Below the pieces are notes generated by a model. The model was not told the DNA's origin and searched no databases. It saw only the letters and a list, made by a program, of their open reading frames with translations. Position numbers and translations under genes: made by a program. A DNA stretch of 64,000 nucleotides. Source: Petroclostridium xylanilyticum (GTDB lineage: Bacteria > Bacillota > Clostridia > SK-Y3). Where the stretch lies: NCBI RefSeq assembly GCF_002252565.1, contig NZ_NPML01000029.1:1-64000 (forward strand), written 5' to 3'. Positions 4,401-14,330 of this stretch are shown piece after piece (the first letter of the stretch is position 1; every line of letters begins with the position of its first letter).

Positions 4401-4811
4401 ATGAGAGAAAAGGAGAACAAATACACATTGGTTGCTAAAAAGAAACGGATAGTCGTAACCGAGGAAGTCTATAAAGCTTACTATCAGCTAAAAGAAAGGG
4501 AGCGCTATCTTGATAAACTGGCTGCAATACATGATATATCCCTTGAAGCATGTGAAGAAAAGGGTATTCAGGTCGATTATCTAGTGCCAAGAGCGGAAGA
4601 ATCTATAGAGGACATAATAATAAAGCGAGAAATGCTTAAGAAGCTGATGCTAGCTATGAAAATGATATCCGAAGAAGAACGGCTGCTGATTCATGAACTG
4701 TTTTTCAATAGGAAAACAGAGACTGCATTAGCTAGGGAATTAGGTATTAGTCAATCAAACATTAATCGCAGAAAAACAAGAATACTCTCCAAACTAAAAA
4801 AAATTTTATAA
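4401..4811 (+). CDS. Sigma-70-like / helix-turn-helix protein of recombinase island
   Basis: 136-aa protein with a C-terminal region-4-like helix-turn-helix (EEERLLIHELFFNRKTETA, then ARELGISQSNINRRKTRIL) and a charged helical N-terminal half. The start is set at the ATG at 4401 because GGAGG at 4388-4392 sits 8 nt upstream; an in-frame upstream codon at 4350 has no ribosome site. Short sigma-factor-like proteins of this type often accompany site-specific recombinase genes in clostridial islands. It probably regulates the island rather than acting as a general sigma factor. A strong terminator follows at 4835-4874. Confidence 0.75.
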   Translation: MREKENKYTLVAKKKRIVVTEEVYKAYYQLKERERYLDKLAAIHDISLEACEEKGIQVDYLVPRAEESIEDIIIKREMLKKLMLAMKMISEEERLLIHELFFNRKTETALARELGISQSNINRRKTRILSKLKKIL

Positions 4812-4834
4812 AAATTTAAAAATATTGCGCATAG

Positions 4835-4874
4835 CCCCCTCACTTTTTTCCTTAAAGAAGTGAGGGGGTTTTTT
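4835..4874 (+). terminator. Rho-independent terminator after sigma-like gene
   Basis: An 11-bp stem CCCCCTCACTT / AAGTGAGGGGG (4835-4845 with 4858-4868) is followed by TTTTTTC. It separates the sigma-like gene from the structured region downstream. Confidence 0.9.
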
Positions 4875-4889
4875 CTTCCCCTCACTGTT

Positions 4890-5265
4890 CTTTGAAAACT
4901 ATCGGTGCAAGCCGTCTATATCCAACATCTCAAATACATTAGCTGTTCAGCCGCAGAAACGGAAAGCGACATTGGTAAACACGCCAGGACTGCCTGCGGA
5001 CTAATTGTCCGTCAAAACGATGGCATCGAAGGTGACGAGCGAGAATGTTTGACCATAAAACAATCTGTGGTAGATTGTTTCGCCAAAACCTGAACAGCCT
5101 ACAATGATACTCCTGCATGGTCGAGGTTGAGTCCTAGAGTGCAGCCCGGAGGCCTTCGGGGAGGTGAGATTCCTGTGATGCCTGCTGACCACGGGCAGTT
5201 TAAGCTGTTGCTCTCGTGCTTGGGAAGTAGTGTCGAATAAAGCATTGCCTGAAAATGAAGAACAA
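4890..5265 (+). ncRNA. Candidate structured non-coding RNA, family not identified
   Basis: This 370-nt gene-free interval is more GC-rich than its surroundings and holds many mutually compatible helices. A long-range 9-bp helix joins 4942-4950 to 5090-5098. Inside it are CGGAC/GTCCG (4997-5001 with 5007-5011) and a 9-bp hairpin (5058-5066 with 5072-5080, loop GTGGT). Beyond it are CTGCA/TGCAG (5113-5117 with 5140-5144) and GCCTG/CGGGC near 5180-5196. No convincing ORF or ribosome site is present. It sits between a terminator and the recombinase genes. I cannot name the family; a regulatory RNA or element-specific RNA is inference. Confidence 0.55.
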
Positions 5266-5363: not shown

Positions 5364-5753
5364 ATGGATCAAAGAAAAAGAGCGTGGCTTTACTGCCGCA
5401 TTGATGCTCCTGAAGATGAGCATGGGCGCCTTAAAGGGCAGAAAAAAGAACTTACGGATTACGCTGAGCAAATGGGTTTTGAAATCGCTGGGGTCTCACA
5501 GGATACGGCAAGCAGTCTGAGATTTGAAAGAAATGGACTAGTTGAAGTGACTGAGGCTGCAGCTGCAGGCAAAATGGATGTTCTTCTGATCATTAATCTC
5601 TCCCGCCTTGGGAGAGATGCCATAAAAACGCTGGATTTTATCCGTTGGCTTCATGATCAGGGAATCAGGGTTTACTCTCCCATGGAGGGCGAAATTACGG
5701 TGGGAGTTCACGGTGAAATTGGTTCAAAAATCATAAGCACACTGAACTTATAA
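5364..5753 (+). CDS. Short resolvase-like protein lacking the catalytic serine
   Basis: 129-aa protein equal to the N-terminal catalytic fold of serine recombinases only. WLYCRIDAPEDE aligns with the [10 protein letters not shown] box of the large recombinase encoded downstream, but the catalytic serine position is aspartate. The SRLGRDAIKTLDFIRWL helix is conserved. AAGGAGG at 5348-5354 supports the start at 5364. With no DNA-binding C-terminal domain and no nucleophile it cannot recombine DNA alone. A role as partner or modulator of the large recombinase is inference from gene order. Confidence 0.75.
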   Translation: MDQRKRAWLYCRIDAPEDEHGRLKGQKKELTDYAEQMGFEIAGVSQDTASSLRFERNGLVEVTEAAAAGKMDVLLIINLSRLGRDAIKTLDFIRWLHDQGIRVYSPMEGEITVGVHGEIGSKIISTLNL

Positions 5754-5767
5754 GGGAGGGAAAAACT

Positions 5768-5929
5768 ATGTCACAAACTCAAATAACCAATGAAATCAAA
5801 TATAAAATGGCTCTTTCCCTGCTGAGGTCCCTGCTCGAAAAGGGTCTTATTACACTTTCCGAATACAAAGAAGTGGATGCAATAAATCAGCGTTTGTACA
5901 AACCGCAATTAGTAGAGGTATATATGTAA
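5768..5929 (+). CDS. Small SHOCT-like protein of the recombinase operon
   Basis: 53-aa protein starting [14 protein letters not shown] with a GGGAGGG site 14 nt after the preceding stop. The middle, [20 protein letters not shown], resembles the short SHOCT motif (helix-GLIT-EEY/F). It lies in the operon between the serine-less resolvase-like gene and the large serine recombinase, a position in which such small proteins are commonly found. Function unknown. Confidence 0.7.
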
Positions 5930-6012: not shown

Positions 6013-6213
6013 ATGCCCAAGGTCACAGTGATAAATCCGATCGGTAAAAAAGCTGAGAAAAAAACGATTCCTAAACTGCGCGTATGCGCATACTGCCGTG
6101 TTAGTTCAGACCACGATGAGCAGCAACAGTCCTTTTCGACACAGGTAGCGCACTACACCGAGTTGATCGAAGCGAACGATGCCTGGACATTTGCCGGCAT
6201 TTACGCCGATGAA
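6013..6213 (+). CDS. Large serine recombinase, exon 1 (split by group II intron)
   Basis: First 67 codons of a large serine recombinase. The start ATG at 6013 follows AAAGGAGG at 5999-6006. [14 protein letters not shown] (about residues 27-40) carries the catalytic serine. The frame is interrupted after Ala-Asp-Glu at 6213 by a group II intron that begins GTGCG. Joining 6213 to 8618 restores ADE-GITGTSTKNR, the normal family sequence, and gives a 538-aa protein. Without splicing, translation ends a few codons into the intron. Confidence 0.9.
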
Positions 6214-8617
6214 GTGCGCCCAGACTAGGGCTTTGTTTAAAGTAGAATTTATGGAACTACACTGCAAGATAACGCAGTAGTCAACCTATCTTACTGCAAG
6301 GGGAAACCCGATACAGGAACATAGCATGATAGGAAAGCGACAAGTTGGCTTAGGACAAAAGCCACGACTTATGTTGCAATGACAAGTGGATATGAGGATA
6401 AGATTGTATTTATCGAATGTGAGGTCTAAGCTGCCATTGCGTAGGGTCTAAGGAAATGTCCTGATACCTTAGCTGTAACATCTATATGTACCTTCGTCGC
6501 ATATAGAGTTATCAATAAATTACAGAGCAGGCACGAGAACGTGTTATAACAGACTGAAAGCATATCCGACAATCCACATTTCCAAGAAACAAAGCTAAAC
6601 TGGGGATTACCTAAGCAAGTTTCACTTGTATGGTAACAGAGTTTCCATAGTAGTCCGAGATGAGTAAGGCTCATTACATGGCGAAGGGAAACAGTTAATA
6701 AATTTCAAAATTAGAAAGTTGAAAGGCAGGAGAATCCTGAATGAAACCAACAGCTGAAATTTTGGAGCGTATCAATAAAAATTCAAATGAGCACAAAGAT
6801 GGAGTATATACTCGCTTATACCGTTATCTTTTAAGGGAAGATATTTATTACAGTGCATACCAAAAATTATATTCCAATAAAGGAGCATCAACTGAAGGTA
6901 TTGATAATGATACTGCTGATGGATTTGGAAAGAAATATGTAGAAAGTTCAATAGAAGAATTAAGCAATAATACTTATAAACCCAAGCCGGTACGCAGAGA
7001 ATATATCAAGAAATCCAATGGGAAAATGCGACCTTTAGGAATACCGTCATTTAGAGATAAGCTATTACAAGAAGTTATGCGTAGATTTTTAGAAGCTATT
7101 TATGAACCGATTTTTAGTGATTTTTCACATGGATTTAGACCTAATAGAAGTTGTCACACTGCATTAAAGCAGACACTTCCATATTTCAAAGGTGCAAGAT
7201 GGTTTATAGAAGGAGATATAAAAGGCTGTTTTGATAATATTGACCATGATAAGCTTATTGAAATATTACAAAGAAAAATTAAAGACAGTAAGTTTATAAA
7301 CATTATTCGTAGTTTTCTAAAGGCAGGATATATAGAGGATTTCAGATATAACCAAACATATTCTGGAACACCTCAAGGAGGGATTTTATCCCCAATACTT
7401 GCCAATATTTATCTGAATGAATTGGATAATAAAATCATGGAGATTAAACAAAACTTCGATAAGCCGGCAACAAGGTGTGTAAATCCAACATACGACGAGA
7501 TTAGAGGGAAAAGATATTGGTTACAGCAGAAACTTAAAAATGCTACTGATGAAGAAAAACCGGTTCTGATTTCAAGAATTAATGAATATAGTAAGAAACT
7601 TTTGAAATTACCCTATAAATCACAAACGGATAAAAATATAGCTTTTGTAAGATATGCTGATGACTTTTTAATAGCAGTAAGAGGAAATAAAGAAGATTGC
7701 ATTAAAATTAAAGAACAATTAAGAGAATTTCTAAATGATGAATTAAAGCTTACCTTAAGTGATGAAAAGACTTTGATTACTCACAGTAGTGAAAAAGTTA
7801 GGTTCTTAGGATATGACATTTCAGTTAGACGTAATCAACAAATATCAACTAATTCATTAGGACACAAGAAACGTCAGCTGAATGGCACTGTAGAATTATT
7901 AGTTCCTTTAGAGAAGATAGAAAAGTTTATGTTTGATAAAGGTATCATTAGACAGAGCAAAGCTAAAAAGTTTCACCCGATACACAGAAAAGGATGGCTA
8001 TATCTCCCAGACCAAGAAATCTTGGAAAGATACAATGCTGAAATTCGTGGAATACTCAATTATTACCACCTAGCCAACAATTATAATAAACTTAATTATT
8101 TTCAATACTTGATGGAATATAGCTGCCTTGCAACTTTAGCAGGAAAGCATAATTCTTCAATAAGTAAAGTAATTGACAAATATAAAAGCGGCAAAGGTTG
8201 GGCAATAAAATATAAAACAGAAAAAGGTAAAACACGAGAAAAGAGAATTGTAAAACTTCAAGATTGCAAAGGGTTCTGTGATGATAATATTGTTAGACAC
8301 ATTTATTCTGTAAATACCAATGCTACTATTAGAGCAAGACTGCAAGCAGGAGTTTGCGAGCTTTGCGGTAGCAGGGGAAAGTCTAATTATGAGGTTCACC
8401 ATGTTTCAAGTGTAAAGGGACTAGAAGGCAATAAGCTTTGGGAGCAGATAATGAAAATCAAAAATAGAAAAACATTAGTGGTATGCGAGGATTGCCATAA
8501 GGCAATACATAGTTAATTTGAATTTTAAAATGATATGGTAATTATTAACGGAGAGCCGTATACGTCGAGAGGTGTACGTACGGTTCGGTGGCGAGGGATT
8601 TTGTGCCCTTAGCCTAT
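6214..8617 (+). mobile_element. Group II intron, Ll.LtrB-like (IIA / mitochondrial-like lineage)
   Basis: A 2404-nt intron. It begins GTGCGCCCAGAC, matching the 5' end typical of Ll.LtrB-type introns, and ends CCTAT, giving the expected 3' AY. Domain V is visible at 8554-8586 (GAGCCGT...ACGGTTC), and domain VI follows with a likely branch-point A at 8611, seven bases from the end. The loop at 6493-6498 (TTCGTC, in a 7-bp hairpin CTATATG/CATATAG) pairs with the last six exon bases GATGAA. GCGTAGG at 6439-6445 pairs with exon TTTACGC. These are the EBS1-IBS1 and EBS2-IBS2 interactions. The ORF lies in domain IV. Confidence 0.93.
6741..8516 (+). CDS. ltrA: Group II intron reverse transcriptase/maturase with HNH endonuclease
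   Basis: 591-aa intron-encoded protein closely resembling lactococcal LtrA from its first residues (MKPTAEILERI). The reverse transcriptase domain (about 60-380) carries SYGTPQGG-type TYSGTPQGGILSP and the catalytic YADD near residue 305. The maturase (X) domain follows. The C-terminal zinc-type HNH nuclease shows CELCG near 539, YEVHHV, and CEDCHKAIH. It promotes intron splicing and retrohoming by target-primed reverse transcription. All motifs look intact. AGGCAGGAG precedes the start. It is encoded inside domain IV, so its translation competes with splicing. Confidence 0.95.
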   Translation: MKPTAEILERINKNSNEHKDGVYTRLYRYLLREDIYYSAYQKLYSNKGASTEGIDNDTADGFGKKYVESSIEELSNNTYKPKPVRREYIKKSNGKMRPLGIPSFRDKLLQEVMRRFLEAIYEPIFSDFSHGFRPNRSCHTALKQTLPYFKGARWFIEGDIKGCFDNIDHDKLIEILQRKIKDSKFINIIRSFLKAGYIEDFRYNQTYSGTPQGGILSPILANIYLNELDNKIMEIKQNFDKPATRCVNPTYDEIRGKRYWLQQKLKNATDEEKPVLISRINEYSKKLLKLPYKSQTDKNIAFVRYADDFLIAVRGNKEDCIKIKEQLREFLNDELKLTLSDEKTLITHSSEKVRFLGYDISVRRNQQISTNSLGHKKRQLNGTVELLVPLEKIEKFMFDKGIIRQSKAKKFHPIHRKGWLYLPDQEILERYNAEIRGILNYYHLANNYNKLNYFQYLMEYSCLATLAGKHNSSISKVIDKYKSGKGWAIKYKTEKGKTREKRIVKLQDCKGFCDDNIVRHIYSVNTNATIRARLQAGVCELCGSRGKSNYEVHHVSSVKGLEGNKLWEQIMKIKNRKTLVVCEDCHKAIHS

Positions 8618-10033
8618 GGGATTACCGGCACCAGTACGAAAAACAGAACAGGGTTCAATAAATTGATTGAAGACTGCATGGCAGGCAAGATTGACCTGGT
8701 GCTGACAAAATCCATCAGCCGTTTTGCAAGAAACACCCTTGATTGCATTCAATACATACGGAAACTGAAAGAGAAAAACATCGGCGTGTTCTTCGAAAAA
8801 GAGAACGTCAACACCCTGGACAGTACCGGAGAATTTCTCATCACCATCCTCGGAAGCTTGGCCCAGGAAGAAAGCCGTTCCTTAAGCACCAACACAAGGT
8901 GGGGTGTCGTTCGCCGGTTTGAGAAAGGACAGGTTATGGTCAATCACAACAAGTTTTTGGGATATACGAAAAATGAGGCCGGTGAATTGGTGATAGTGCC
9001 GGAGGAAGCAGAAATAGTAAGGCTGATTTTCAGGCTTTATTTAGAGGGTCAAAGCATTACCCAAATTAAAAAATACTTGGAGGAAAACGGTATAAAAACG
9101 GTTACCGGAAAAAACCAATGGTCTACTACCACCATCAACAGGATGCTTTCCAATGAGAAGTATATGGGAGATGCCCTGCTGCAAAAAAGCTACACAATAG
9201 ATTATCTCACCAAGAAAAGAGTAAAAAACAATGGAATTGTCCCCCAGTATTATGTGGAGGACAGCCATCCGGCCATCATCTCAAAAGACTTGTTTCACCG
9301 GATACAGGAAGAAAAAGCACGCCGGGCCAGCCTTAAGAAATCTGCTGATAAAAGAGTCAAAACCGACAGTGGAAAATACAGCTCAAAATATGCTCTAACC
9401 GAATTACTAATATGTGGAGAGTGTGGCAAACCTTACAGACGGGCATCCTGGACAGCATATAGTGAGAAAAGGATTGTCTGGCGGTGCTTTAACAGGCTGG
9501 AGCATGGGAAAAAATACTGCCCAAAATCTCCCACAATTGATGAAGATGTTTTACATAGAGCCATTATAGATGCTTTTAATTCACTCATACAGGATAAGGG
9601 AGATTTTGTGGACACTCTACAGTCCAACATTCAGCTGGTGATGAGCAACCGGGCTAAACGGATGGACATAACAAGAATAGAGAAACGGATCGCGGAATTA
9701 AAAAAAGAGATGTTAGGCTTCGTAGAGGAAAATGCAAGATGTGGAGCAGATAATACGGACTTTGACGAGCATTATGCCAAAATCTCCTCCGAGTTGAAAG
9801 AACTCCAGAAGAAGAAAACGCAATATACTGAACAGGAAGCCAGTCAAGACAGCTTCCAGAGAAGAATTGGGGATATGAAGAAGTTTCTGAACGCTGCAGA
9901 CTGCAACTTATCGGAATTTGATAACCAGCTTGTCAGGCAGCTTGTACATAATATTAAGGTCATGTCAAAGGATAAGATTCTCATAAGATTCAAATCAGGT
10001 TTAGAGATGGAACAAGAGCTATCTATAAAATAA
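8618..10033 (+). CDS. Large serine recombinase, exon 2
   Basis: Codons 68-538 of the recombinase begun at 6013. It opens with GITGTSTKNRTGFNKLI and continues through SRFARNTLD and EEKARRASLKK. The recombinase domain spans roughly 150-260 of the joined protein. The zinc-ribbon follows with CGECGKPYRRA and CFNRLEHGKKYCP, then a coiled-coil segment (KRMDITRIEKRIAELKKEM). This is the architecture of integrases of Tn5397/phage-type mobile elements, which act on attP/attB without replication. It is probably the integrase of the island. The flanking att sites were not identified. Confidence 0.9.
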   Translation, partial: GITGTSTKNRTGFNKLIEDCMAGKIDLVLTKSISRFARNTLDCIQYIRKLKEKNIGVFFEKENVNTLDSTGEFLITILGSLAQEESRSLSTNTRWGVVRRFEKGQVMVNHNKFLGYTKNEAGELVIVPEEAEIVRLIFRLYLEGQSITQIKKYLEENGIKTVTGKNQWSTTTINRMLSNEKYMGDALLQKSYTIDYLTKKRVKNNGIVPQYYVEDSHPAIISKDLFHRIQEEKARRASLKKSADKRVKTDSGKYSSKYALTELLICGECGKPYRRASWTAYSEKRIVWRCFNRLEHGKKYCPKSPTIDEDVLHRAIIDAFNSLIQDKGDFVDTLQSNIQLVMSNRAKRMDITRIEKRIAELKKEMLGFVEENARCGADNTDFDEHYAKISSELKELQKKKTQYTEQEASQDSFQRRIGDMKKFLNAADCNLSEFDNQLVRQLVHNIKVMSKDKILIRFKSGLEMEQELSIK

Positions 10034-10388: not shown

Positions 10389-10500
10389 TCTTTTGGTATT
10401 TTTTCGGTTGATTATGACGTGATTTAAAAATTATAGCGGGAAATGAGAGAAAGCAAATATAATTATTTGATATAAGTGAAAACAAAAGGGGATGGATAAT

Positions 10501-12552
10501 GTGTTCATATCCAATATTAAAATAGTAAATTTTAGGAATTTTAAAAACACTGACATAAAATTTAATGATGGTGTAAATGTAATTATCGGACATAATAATG
10601 CAGGAAAATCAAATCTAATAAAAGCCTTGGCATTAGTGCTTGATTCTAAAGTGACAAAGCAGTTAGACATCGATGATTTTAATAAACATATTACACTTGA
10701 TGAATTGAAGGCTAATCCACCAAAAATAAGTATAGCTATTACAATAAATCAAAGTATTGATGAAGATTTAAATTCTGATGACTTAGTAACTGTAGGTAAT
10801 TGGCTTACTACTCTAAACGAACCTTATCAGGCATTATTAACCTATGAGTTTTTTCTTCCCGAAAAAGAAAGAGATAAATATTTAAAAATAATTAAATCTG
10901 CTACAAATCTAGATATGGCTTGGAAGTTAATAAAACACGATTTTATAAGGCTCTATGTATACAGAATTTGGGGTGGTGACCCAATAACCCAAACCGTTGC
11001 AGATAGCGATTCGTTACAGAAATTTGATTTTCAATTTTTGGATGCAATTCGTGATGTTGAAAGAGATATGCTTACTGGCAAAAATACGCTTCTAAGAAAT
11101 GTCTTAGACTTTTTTATGGATTATGAAATAAAATCTGATGCCACAAAGTCAGAGGAAGATAAAAGGACGGAAATAGAAAAGAAAAAGCAGGATTTTTCTG
11201 AGCGGGCAGATGCATTACTTCTTGACCTTCAGGCAAGAATGAAGCAAGGCAAGGAGCAAATTCTTTCATACGCAAAGGATACAGGGGCATCATTTCATAA
11301 AGCTATACCAAATTTCGAGGGGAGCATTTCGGATATTGAAATGTTCTCTGCGCTTAAGCTAATTGTGGAGTATGAAACTGGTATAAAAATACCTGCAACA
11401 CACAATGGACTCGGATATAATAATTTGATTTTCATGTCGTTGCTTTTATCTAAGATGCAAGTAAATTCAGATGGCAAATATTTAGGAAGTAATGCAAAAG
11501 TTTTCCCTGTTTTGGCAATTGAAGAACCGGAAGCACACCTTCATCCCGCGATGCAATATCAGTTTTTGAGATTTTTGAAAAAAAATAAAACAGAGAAAAA
11601 AGTAAGACAGATTTTTGTAACAACTCATTCAACGCACATTACTTCTTCCGTTTCATTAGATGAGCTGATTTGCCTGCATAATGAAGCAGGAGAAACATTA
11701 GTAGGATATCCAGGGAAAGTATTTCCGAGTGATGGAAAAAGTAAAAGATATGTTCAGCGTTTTTTGGATGCAACCAAATCAGATATGCTTTTTGCCCAAA
11801 AAGTGATTTTAGTAGAGGGAATAGTCGAGCAATTACTTTTATCAATTCTAGCAAGGTATGAGGGGAAGTCATTAGAGGAAAATCATATTGCAGTAATAAA
11901 TGTAGGTGGAAGATATTTTGATCATTTTTTACATTTGTTTGATTCTCAAAAGCCATATACAATAAATAAAAAAGTTGTTTGCCTAACCGATATAGATCCT
12001 GAGAGAAGGAAGAAAGATCAAGGCGTAAACTTTAAAAAATGCTATCCATTTGAATTGAATATCGATAGTACAACTTACGAGTATAAAGTCAACACCAGTT
12101 TAGATAGATATGAAGAAGGTAAGCATCCTAATATTGTTTCATTTACTCAAGATAAAGTTTACGGAAAAACATTTGAATATGATTTAATTTTAAATAATCC
12201 AACACTTGACTTATTAATAACTGAATCGATGAGCAATAGAGAAGAAATTATACAACTCATGCAATTATATAAAAATAAAAGCCCGATTTCTGAATATGAA
12301 AAAAAGTTAAATAAAAGTGATGAAAACCAAAGAATTATTGATAGTTTATGTACAAATACCTTATGGGAAGACGATCAAAAAGCTAAAGCTATTATAGCTG
12401 CTCGATATCTTAACTCAGTTGGGAAAGGAGAAAATGCGATGGAATTAGTATATGCGTTAGAGGAAAATCTAACAAAAAAGGGAACTGCCGAATATAAAGA
12501 ATTTATTGTTCCTGATTATATTAAGAAAGCCATCGCATGGATATGCAAATGA
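10501..12552 (+). CDS. gajA: OLD-family ATP-dependent nuclease, Gabija GajA-like
   Basis: 683-aa protein combining an ABC-type ATPase and a TOPRIM nuclease domain, as in Gabija GajA, which nicks or cuts phage DNA. Walker A is GHNNAGKSN (about 30-38), Walker B/signature IEEPEAHLHP near 340, then VTTHSTHI. TOPRIM acidic residues appear in ILVEGIVEQ (about 436) and LTDID (about 496). I prefer the GTG at 10501, 9 nt after AAAGGGG; an ATG at 10492 abuts that site directly. It overlaps the helicase gene. It is about 100 aa longer than the archetypal GajA, so a divergent OLD/UvrD pair is also possible. Confidence 0.82.
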   Translation: MFISNIKIVNFRNFKNTDIKFNDGVNVIIGHNNAGKSNLIKALALVLDSKVTKQLDIDDFNKHITLDELKANPPKISIAITINQSIDEDLNSDDLVTVGNWLTTLNEPYQALLTYEFFLPEKERDKYLKIIKSATNLDMAWKLIKHDFIRLYVYRIWGGDPITQTVADSDSLQKFDFQFLDAIRDVERDMLTGKNTLLRNVLDFFMDYEIKSDATKSEEDKRTEIEKKKQDFSERADALLLDLQARMKQGKEQILSYAKDTGASFHKAIPNFEGSISDIEMFSALKLIVEYETGIKIPATHNGLGYNNLIFMSLLLSKMQVNSDGKYLGSNAKVFPVLAIEEPEAHLHPAMQYQFLRFLKKNKTEKKVRQIFVTTHSTHITSSVSLDELICLHNEAGETLVGYPGKVFPSDGKSKRYVQRFLDATKSDMLFAQKVILVEGIVEQLLLSILARYEGKSLEENHIAVINVGGRYFDHFLHLFDSQKPYTINKKVVCLTDIDPERRKKDQGVNFKKCYPFELNIDSTTYEYKVNTSLDRYEEGKHPNIVSFTQDKVYGKTFEYDLILNNPTLDLLITESMSNREEIIQLMQLYKNKSPISEYEKKLNKSDENQRIIDSLCTNTLWEDDQKAKAIIAARYLNSVGKGENAMELVYALEENLTKKGTAEYKEFIVPDYIKKAIAWICK

Positions 12553-14330
12553 TCTCAATAAATTCAGATACACTAATTCCTATTGAAGAACATTTTCGAG
12601 TATCTGCTGGCCCCGGTGCCGGTAAGACATATTGGGTAGTAAAACATATAAAGAATATTTTACATACGTCAAAAAGGCTAAAGAAAACTCGTAAGATTGC
12701 TTGTATTACGTATACAAATATTGCGGTAGAAACAATTTTGAAAAACTTAGGAACTAATACAAGCCAAGTCGAAGTTTCTACAATTCATAGCTTTTTATAT
12801 AAGCATATTGTAAAGCCATATGTGTCATTTTTAGCCGCTGATTACGGTTTGGATGTAGTGGAATTAGATGGTCATAGTGATCCTGTTTTGCATTTTAAAA
12901 AAGTTGTTGAATGGATTGAAAATCATCCCTATGCTAATGAGCTAAAGCACCCATATACTATAAACCAACTGATAAAATTGGATACTAACAAAAGCGCACT
13001 TATAGGTTGGTTATCGTCGTTAAGTTATAAAATGGATCATTACAATAATTTGAAAATTATAGGAGACAGAGAAAAAGCCTTTTATTTAGTAGAAAACAAA
13101 GGAAAGATAGAACGCAGATATTTAAATAAAAAATGTCTGGATATTCTTGAAGCAGACTTACTAGAATATAAAAAACTTTATTGGCAAGAAGGACTTATAG
13201 ATCACGATGATGTTCTCTTTTTTAGTTATCAACTTATAAAAAAGTACCCTTTTATTTTAACTATTTTGCGAGCAAAATTCCCATATTTCTTCGTAGATGA
13301 GTTTCAGGATACCAATCCAATTCAAGTAGCTATCTTGAAATTAATAGGTGAAAAAGAAACTATTATTGGAATAATTGGTGATGAGGCTCAATCAATTTAT
13401 TCATTTCAAGGTGCAGACCCAAAACAATTTCGTTCTTTTGAATTGCCGCACATAGTGGATTATGTAATACCTGACAATAGAAGAAGTACAAATCGAATCA
13501 TTGATGTATTAAATAAAGTTCGTACAAATATTAAACAGAATAAAATAAGAAACATAGATGGAGAAAAACCAATTATTATTATTGGCGATAAAGTTGCCGC
13601 TCTTAGAAAGGCAATAGAAATAAGTAATAATGAGCCAGTATATTCATTATCAAGAGATAATATAACATCGAACGTAATGAAGAAAGAAATCGGAGAAATG
13701 TATTTTAATGATAAGTTAATCGACGAACTTTCAGATATAGACAAATCAAGTAGTAGTAATCATTATAGAAGTAAAGTGGTGATTAGTTGTTTAAAGGCAA
13801 CAGAACTTGCTCATGAAGGAAAATTTAAAGAAGCAATTAAAGAATTAGAACAATTGTTTAGAGAGAAGAATGATAAAAGCAAAGGGAAAAAAGAAGCGCT
13901 TAAGTATTTATGTTTACTCTTAAAAAACTATGATGAATTCAAAGATAAGTCTTTCTTTGATTTCTATTCATTTGTGAAAAGTAAAATTAAACCGGAGATT
14001 TCAAATCTGAAAAGTGGTGCAGCTAAAACTTTTTATGAAAAGCATAGTTATTTACAATTAGCCTTGTGTGTGAATTTCAATGAAGACATTAGCAAAGATA
14101 AGACTATCCACAAAGCAAAAGGTGATGAATTCAATAATGTTTTTGTTGTCTTAAATAATGAAAAAGATTTAGATTTTCTTTTGAGACCTGATTTAAACGG
14201 AAATGAAGAACACAGGATTTATTATGTAGCAATAAGTAGGGCGAGAGAGAGATTGTTTATTAATATACCATCATTATCTAATAATGATTTATCAATATTA
14301 GAGGGTTTATTTAATATAATTAGTGTTTAA
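12549..14330 (+). CDS. gajB: UvrD/Rep-like helicase, Gabija GajB-like
   Basis: About 593-aa superfamily 1 helicase. Motif I is GPGAGKT near residue 20, motif II VDEFQDTNP near 250, motif III GDEAQSIYSFQGADP, motif V region TIHKAKGDEF and motif VI YYVAISRARE. An ATGA overlap with the nuclease gene (ATG 12549) implies coupling; in-frame ATGs at 12537 and 12543 are alternatives. In Gabija, GajB senses DNA termini or nucleotide depletion and activates GajA. The direct pairing with an OLD nuclease is the main evidence for the system. Confidence 0.82.
   Translation: MISINSDTLIPIEEHFRVSAGPGAGKTYWVVKHIKNILHTSKRLKKTRKIACITYTNIAVETILKNLGTNTSQVEVSTIHSFLYKHIVKPYVSFLAADYGLDVVELDGHSDPVLHFKKVVEWIENHPYANELKHPYTINQLIKLDTNKSALIGWLSSLSYKMDHYNNLKIIGDREKAFYLVENKGKIERRYLNKKCLDILEADLLEYKKLYWQEGLIDHDDVLFFSYQLIKKYPFILTILRAKFPYFFVDEFQDTNPIQVAILKLIGEKETIIGIIGDEAQSIYSFQGADPKQFRSFELPHIVDYVIPDNRRSTNRIIDVLNKVRTNIKQNKIRNIDGEKPIIIIGDKVAALRKAIEISNNEPVYSLSRDNITSNVMKKEIGEMYFNDKLIDELSDIDKSSSSNHYRSKVVISCLKATELAHEGKFKEAIKELEQLFREKNDKSKGKKEALKYLCLLLKNYDEFKDKSFFDFYSFVKSKIKPEISNLKSGAAKTFYEKHSYLQLALCVNFNEDISKDKTIHKAKGDEFNNVFVVLNNEKDLDFLLRPDLNGNEEHRIYYVAISRARERLFINIPSLSNNDLSILEGLFNIISV

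Follow-up and report, generated by a model that had tools for sequence, protein, structure and literature searches.

The window analysed here comprises 64,000 nucleotides of Petroclostridium xylanilyticum contig NZ_NPML01000029.1. It starts at base 1 of this contig, and the left part of the mobile element described below lies off the contig. Near this end, a sigma-like gene and a strong intrinsic terminator are followed on the same strand by a gene-free segment, and then by genes for a small resolvase-domain protein, a SHOCT_2 protein and a large serine recombinase (Table 1). An initial annotation had proposed that this segment carries a structured RNA set between the sigma-like gene and the recombinases and preceded by a strong terminator, and the gene and terminator boundaries agree with that description. 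The 9-bp long-range helix and the 9-bp hairpin it reported (here P1 and P4) are both present. Together with all other stems listed in that annotation, they are enclosed by an outer helix, P0, within an RNA of ~300 nucleotides whose 3′ end lies about 150 nucleotides ahead of the first start codon.

Table 1. Features of the locus (positions in the window) and c-di-GMP-I riboswitches of sister elements (positions in the respective loci)
Feature	Position	Strand	Remarks
Sigma-like gene	4401-4811	+	Sigma70_r4 only, Pfam PF04545, E 1.1e-6; position equivalent to Tn916 orf7
Strong intrinsic terminator, between sigma-like gene and RNA	4833-4876	+	17-pair stem (4833-4870) and T-run
boxA-like sequence TGTTCTTTGAAAACT	4886-4900	+	Upstream of structured RNA
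canT/pemK-type structured RNA	4918-5213	+	Full match to covariance model R1, 296 bits (the 14 training sequences include that of the window)
P0, 5′ strand	4924-4935	+	Pairs with 5198-5209; two mismatches in the window copy
P1, 5′ strand GCTGTTCAG	4942-4950	+	9-bp long-range helix with 5090-5098
Hairpin P4, ACAATCTGTGGTAGATTGT	within 5058-5080	+	Comparative pairing
P1, 3′ strand CTGAACAGC	5090-5098	+	Directly 5′ of pemK core
pemK RNA core (RF02913)	5101-5178	+	56.8 bits, gathering score 34.8, E 1.5e-7
P0, 3′ strand, end of RNA	5198-5209	+	Comparative structure
Second conserved hairpin, P7	5276-5336	+	Internal loop AACTATGC/GCATCCTT; just 5′ of the ribosome-binding site of the first gene
Small resolvase-domain protein without catalytic serine	5364-5753	+	PF00239, E 8e-16
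SHOCT_2 protein	5768-5929	+	PF20612, E 1.3e-17
Large serine recombinase	6014-10033	+	Split by group II intron (about 6229-8617); PF07508/PF00239/PF13408 on 8588-10030
Inferred right end of element	about 10062		Similarity to the C27 copy in L100 ends there
c-di-GMP-I riboswitches (RF01051)	L037:3307-3396, L038:3521-3610, L040:3615-3704, L041:3465-3553, L042:800-890		
c-di-GMP-I riboswitches (RF01051)	L043:3112-3198, L044:2350-2441, L045:3300-3388, L046:3137-3227, L047:2647-2735		
c-di-GMP-I riboswitches (RF01051)	L049:3086-3177, L051:2563-2652, L055:2735-2822, L101:7239-7328		

Comparative evidence for a conserved fold

Judged by single-sequence folding energy, the window RNA does not stand out from shuffled sequences (z -0.72, with 27 of 100 shuffles equally good). 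Therefore, the RNA cannot be proven from one sequence, and the case for it rests on comparison. The consensus fold computed with RNAalifold for 14 window-type homologs contains 77 pairs, for which 95.6% of the cells are paired, versus 35-42% in slid controls. Changes affecting both sides of a pair occur at 48 of these pairs compared to 29.7 in shuffles, a control that is inflated by kinship, such that the slid control and independent loci carry the weight. Among the individual elements, P1 and hairpin P4 are 98% and 99% paired, respectively, and double-sided changes are found in eight of the 12 pairs of P0 and in four pairs of P4. The initial annotation had suggested that compensatory changes be sought in the stems of homologous islands, and covariation there is strong. 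No reading frame stays open across the homologs, and on this ground we rejected a coding function for the stretch. A conserved open reading frame was the observation that the annotation had named as evidence against an RNA, and its proposal of a structured RNA in the gene-free segment thus stands. We conclude that the folded RNA is real and that it has been conserved in evolution.

The hairpin P7 is likewise well conserved, with pairing in 92.5% of the cells across 14 loci versus 35-46% in slid controls. This hairpin, with its constant internal loop, is found only in window-type islands, where it may serve as an RNA regulator or as a DNA site. An alternative hairpin at 4859-4886 that would use the 3′ arm of the terminator is, by eye, not conserved, and we therefore claim no attenuator.

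The pemK RNA model represents a fragment of a larger RNA

The initial annotation could not match the RNA to a known class. This no longer holds, as evident by a cmscan search in which nucleotides 5101-5178 align with all 61 positions of the Rfam pemK RNA model, well above the gathering score. In the window, the only other Rfam family to reach its gathering score is the group II intron, and neither EAR (B. subtilis eps) nor other described RNA families yielded a window match above the Rfam cut-off. The same 78 nucleotides exhibit weak similarity to dinG RNA (RF03082; 24.8 bits, below the cut-off). The dinG and pemK RNAs share a AAUGAUACU start, and the two families may be related.

Of 391 genomes searched from the class, 119 (about 30%) carry RF02913 above its cut-off, and the 14 control genomes gave no such match. 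The host genome carries three full-length copies of the RNA, namely that in the window and two others at C27:24463-24829 and C27:104430-104790 (87% and 80% identical to the window copy), as well as a fourth copy consisting of the core only (C4:97383). Rfam types pemK RNA as Cis-reg. In the literature searched, the name returned only database or method papers, in which it figures as part of a dataset or as a structure-revision case, along with unrelated ones, and by this measure it is an orphan family.

The 61-nucleotide Rfam model is a fragment of a larger RNA. When pemK loci were searched for helices with a 3′ strand that stops directly ahead of ATAATGATACT, a P1-type helix scoring at least 20 was found at 54% of loci versus 5% of cross-locus pairings, and pairing is kept while the sequences vary between loci. 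P0 begins 5-6 nucleotides 5′ of P1, from which it is separated by the spacer ACRTT(A), and closes 3′ of the core. A composite P0-ACRTT-P1 score of at least 32 is attained by 64 of 80 loci versus 62 of 790 cross-locus pairings (7.8%), a control that takes in related loci and is therefore conservative. The sequence GAGCG occurs 57-74 nucleotides 5′ of the core in 55 of the 80 loci. Seven control windows were examined for comparison, of which one gave 21% and the others 0-2%. Across the 80 loci, a hairpin at the position of P4 is enriched 3′ of GAGCG.

Homology to canT of Tn916

To examine more distant relatives, covariance models were needed because the RNA is too diverged for searches by DNA similarity, which gave no match to the window RNA in phage and plasmid collections. 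Model R1 was built from the 14 window-type RNAs only, with no Tn916 sequence in training, and model R2 represents the 5′ domain and the first 13 nucleotides of the core. For Tn916 we used the sequence on plasmid pCTN1046 (locus L056), in which orf8 ends at 2040. R1 matches this element over its full length at L056:2175-2453 (88.4 bits, E 1.6e-25 in 637 kb), and R2 also matches (41.7 bits, E 2.7e-9). Additional full-length R1 matches are present before tndX (93 bits) and in an element with vanB (95 bits), which, from their gene content (tndX; vanB cluster with xis/int), we take to be Tn5397 and Tn1549. Nine ‘viral’ contigs from IMG/VR (L111-L119) carry the RNA as well, with R1 scores of 47-219 bits, suggesting that it is present in, or misfiled with, phage-like elements.

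Tn916 canT is a cis-acting, orientation-specific, processive antiterminator that functions on heterologous terminators and without other Tn916 genes, and whose structure was left uninterpreted by its discoverers (Wirachman and Grossman, 2024; PMC11658703). Counting from the orf8 stop codon, as in the published coordinates, the active 452-bp fragment corresponds to L056:2166-2617, an inactivating 162-bp deletion to 2269-2430, and an inactivating ATA-to-TGC change to 2323-2325 (PMC11658703). The latter three nucleotides indeed read ATA, as the published mutation requires. The R1 match lies inside the active fragment, and RF02913 matches Tn916 at L056:2323-2423 (55 bits). Therefore, the deletion removes the whole pemK core, and the 3-bp mutation alters precisely the first three nucleotides of this core. 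The effect of this mutation is small when it is placed in a canT fragment of 400 bp (PMC11658703). At the site aligned with that of the S3 mutation, the window RNA carries ACA where Tn916 carries ATA, and the ATGATACT that follows is identical. Helices corresponding to P1 (CGATAAGAA/TTCTTATCG) and P0 (AGTAATCGAATA/TGTTCGATTGCT) are present in Tn916. The antisense ‘orf5’ of Tn916 has been shown to be non-coding, and represents the same coding artefact as the open reading frames in the window RNA stretch. Judged by sequence, structure and position, the window RNA is homologous to Tn916 canT.

A boxA-like sequence precedes the RNA

The 15 nucleotides of TGTTCTTTGAAAACT upstream of the window RNA are identical to those at L056:2160-2174 in Tn916. 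A boxA-like motif is found at the equivalent place in 53 of 67 loci (79%) versus 0-12% in control windows. The consensus TGYTCYTTGAMAAYTGAAT is located 27-30 nucleotides before the end of P0, or 44-46 or 53-55 nucleotides before it where additional sequence is inserted. In rRNA operons, boxA is bound by NusB/S10, and the three host rrn leaders examined carry GGTCTTTGAAAA about 255 nucleotides before 16S. By analogy, the boxA-like sequence of the window RNA would recruit NusB/S10. The 452-bp active canT fragment starts inside the motif and is without its first 6 nucleotides, and activity of a fragment without the complete motif argues against a strict need for boxA in Tn916.

Gene context and the mobile island

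At 42 of 73 loci, the RNA is preceded by a Sigma70_r4-like gene, and the gene after the RNA encodes HTH_17 (17 loci), PemK (11), ParA-like (8), Tn916-Xis (8), resolvase (6) or SHOCT_2 (6) proteins. The window, Tn916 and Tn5397 share a gene order in which a sigma-like gene and the RNA are followed by xis/int or by a serine recombinase gene such as tndX, and the window RNA, like canT, is on the same strand as the recombination genes. A terminator precedes the RNA in 41% of all loci, and is near-identical in most window-type loci. A scan of the window's + strand between 4887 and 10800 revealed no terminator-like site. Antitermination would predict an enrichment of terminators downstream of the RNA, and this prediction gained no support from other loci, in which few + strand sites occur within ~1.2 kb after the RNA and there is no excess over the - strand, a count that does not reach distant terminators. 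As in Tn916, the RNA is a few kilobases from the right end of the element, which we place shortly 3′ of the large serine recombinase. Therefore, it is positioned to modify a polymerase that crosses the joined ends of the excised circle.

In sister elements, c-di-GMP-I riboswitches are located 1.1-1.9 kb 5′ of the antiterminator RNA and are mostly followed directly by an intrinsic terminator (Table 1). The sigma-like gene lies between riboswitch and RNA in the loci from genome contigs. Unlike these sister elements, the window copy is without a c-di-GMP-I riboswitch. Excision or expression of the riboswitch-bearing islands may respond to c-di-GMP.

Several other features of the islands were observed. 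In all 14 homologs, the catalytic serine of the ~129-amino-acid resolvase-domain protein is replaced (YCRIDAPED or a non-Ser variant), and this protein is apparently a conserved, catalytically dead recombinase paralogue that perhaps serves as an accessory or directionality factor. The intron within the large serine recombinase gene includes RVT_1 and maturase matches on 6741-8513 and a gpII domain at 8551-8617, and near-identical introns interrupt this gene in all three full-length island copies of the host (the others at about 10.9-13.27 kb of L099 and about 13.4-15.77 kb of L100). A Gabija defence pair is encoded just outside the inferred right end (10492-14330; GajA 1032 bits, GajB 762 bits). 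Type I restriction-modification-like genes were recognized from open reading frame translations 5′ of the RNA in sister copies (L099:75-7943; L100:1127-6935), which suggests that the islands carry defence cargo.

A proposed cis-acting antiterminator

We propose, with a probability of roughly 80%, that the recombinase operon of this serine-recombinase island has a canT-type antiterminator in its leader, namely the window RNA, which would act in cis. On transcription of the operon, the nascent RNA comprising the boxA-like sequence, P0/P1, P4 and the pemK core would fold and then work in cis. Its target would be the elongating polymerase, on which it would act directly, with Nus factors as possible partners. 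The modified polymerase would then read through later intrinsic terminators and, as in Tn916, transcribe the recombinase genes. After excision of the element as a circle, this polymerase would probably pass the junction of the two ends and go on to transcribe genes of the element's left part. The initial annotation had envisioned an element-encoded RNA that regulates excision or transcription. Homology to canT favors the latter, whereas excision as the target finds no such backing, given that canT mutants excise at normal frequency (PMC11658703). By the same analogy, the window copy is presumably active on later terminators. Several observations count against an antiterminator, namely the two mismatches in P0, the lack of terminator-like + strand sites between 4887 and 10800, the location of the obvious terminator before the RNA rather than after it, the start of the active Tn916 fragment inside the boxA-like sequence, and the small effect of the 3-bp mutation in the 400-bp fragment.

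It is improbable that the RNA is instead a cis-regulatory leader or riboswitch-like element controlling only the translation or expression of the next gene. The RNA is always 5′ of genes in the same orientation, Rfam files it under Cis-reg, and P7 adjoins the ribosome-binding site, as might be expected for such a leader. However, the first downstream genes belong to many unrelated families, the RNA ends well ahead of the start codon, and its Tn916 homolog acts on distant, heterologous terminators without any Tn916 gene. The diversity of these genes (HTH/Xis, PemK, ParA, resolvase, SHOCT) is more readily explained by a processive antiterminator than by a switch dedicated to one gene. Tight linkage to recombinase genes might also be expected of a trans-acting small RNA, or of a guide or cofactor for the recombinase that acts in excision, but canT works only in cis and its loss leaves Tn916 excision unchanged, and RNAs of this kind are found next to genes for tyrosine integrases, serine recombinases, ParA and PemK alike. 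We therefore consider a role of this kind very improbable.

Hardly credible is the notion that the TTGAAA or TTGACA motif is a -35 element and that the stretch is mainly a promoter region. The resemblance of TTGAMA to a -35 box is offset by the distance to any -10-like position, which is at least 21 nucleotides and variable, and by the three distance classes that separate the motif from the end of P0. Furthermore, the region is lined with covarying pairs, and a promoter scan gives fewer sites than in shuffles. We rejected this reading of TTGAMA on the basis of the variable spacing. A different concern is that the RNA is real but that its window copy has decayed, as a remnant within an island that is no longer active, as might be signaled by the P0 mismatches, the recombinase gene split by a group II intron, and the missing c-di-GMP riboswitch. 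We judge this unlikely, as the inner helices are all intact and the copy scores 296 bits against a model that it helped to train, group II introns can splice out, and P0 is better in two closely related copies that the host genome also carries.

Implications of joining pemK RNA and canT

The window RNA is a member of a pemK/canT class rather than a categorically new RNA. New here are the joining of pemK RNA with canT, the comparative structure, and the boxA; no statement of the link between pemK RNA and canT was found in the literature searched. The link unites an orphan family with a single experimentally found antiterminator, and suggests what this RNA, which about 30% of the genomes sampled from the class carry, probably does. 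Other mobile elements, among them Tn5397 and the vanB element Tn1549, are thereby predicted to be controlled in the same way. For the window element, the function is predicted by homology, and the comparative fold (P0, P1, P4, core and boxA) supplies base pairs by which it can be tested.

More tentatively, and at a little short of even odds, we suggest that the pemK family as a whole constitutes the conserved core of processive antiterminator RNAs of ~230-430 nucleotides (boxA, P0/P1 and core) in Bacillota ICEs and recombinase islands. Their boxA would borrow the NusB/S10 antitermination system that the host uses for rRNA. In one branch, that of the window relatives, a c-di-GMP-I riboswitch with its own terminator could gate the cascade.

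Comparison with known systems

Tn916 canT resembles the window RNA in its full-length covariance match, its location between sigma-like orf7/orf8 and the recombination genes, its boxA-like sequence, the placement of P0 and P1, and its pemK core. The two elements differ in that Tn916 encodes xis/int (a tyrosine integrase) and the HTH gene orf8, whereas the window encodes the Ser-less resolvase-like protein, SHOCT and the large serine recombinase, and has a strong terminator before the RNA. The right end of Tn5397 is similarly composed of a sigma-like gene, the RNA and then directly the serine recombinase gene tndX. However, it has a single recombinase, and its RNA, about 87% like that of Tn916, is distant in sequence from that of the window. 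Rfam RF02913 covers the 3′ core alone, whereas P0, P1, the 5′ domain and the boxA-like sequence of the window RNA are outside the model. EAR, HK022 put and pLS20 conAn2 can be viewed as work-alikes, in that each is a structured RNA that targets RNA polymerase in cis, and at gathering scores the window RNA matches no Rfam family but pemK. The pLS20 conAn system additionally needs a protein, ConAn1, whereas Tn916 canT needs no element-encoded protein (PMC11658703).
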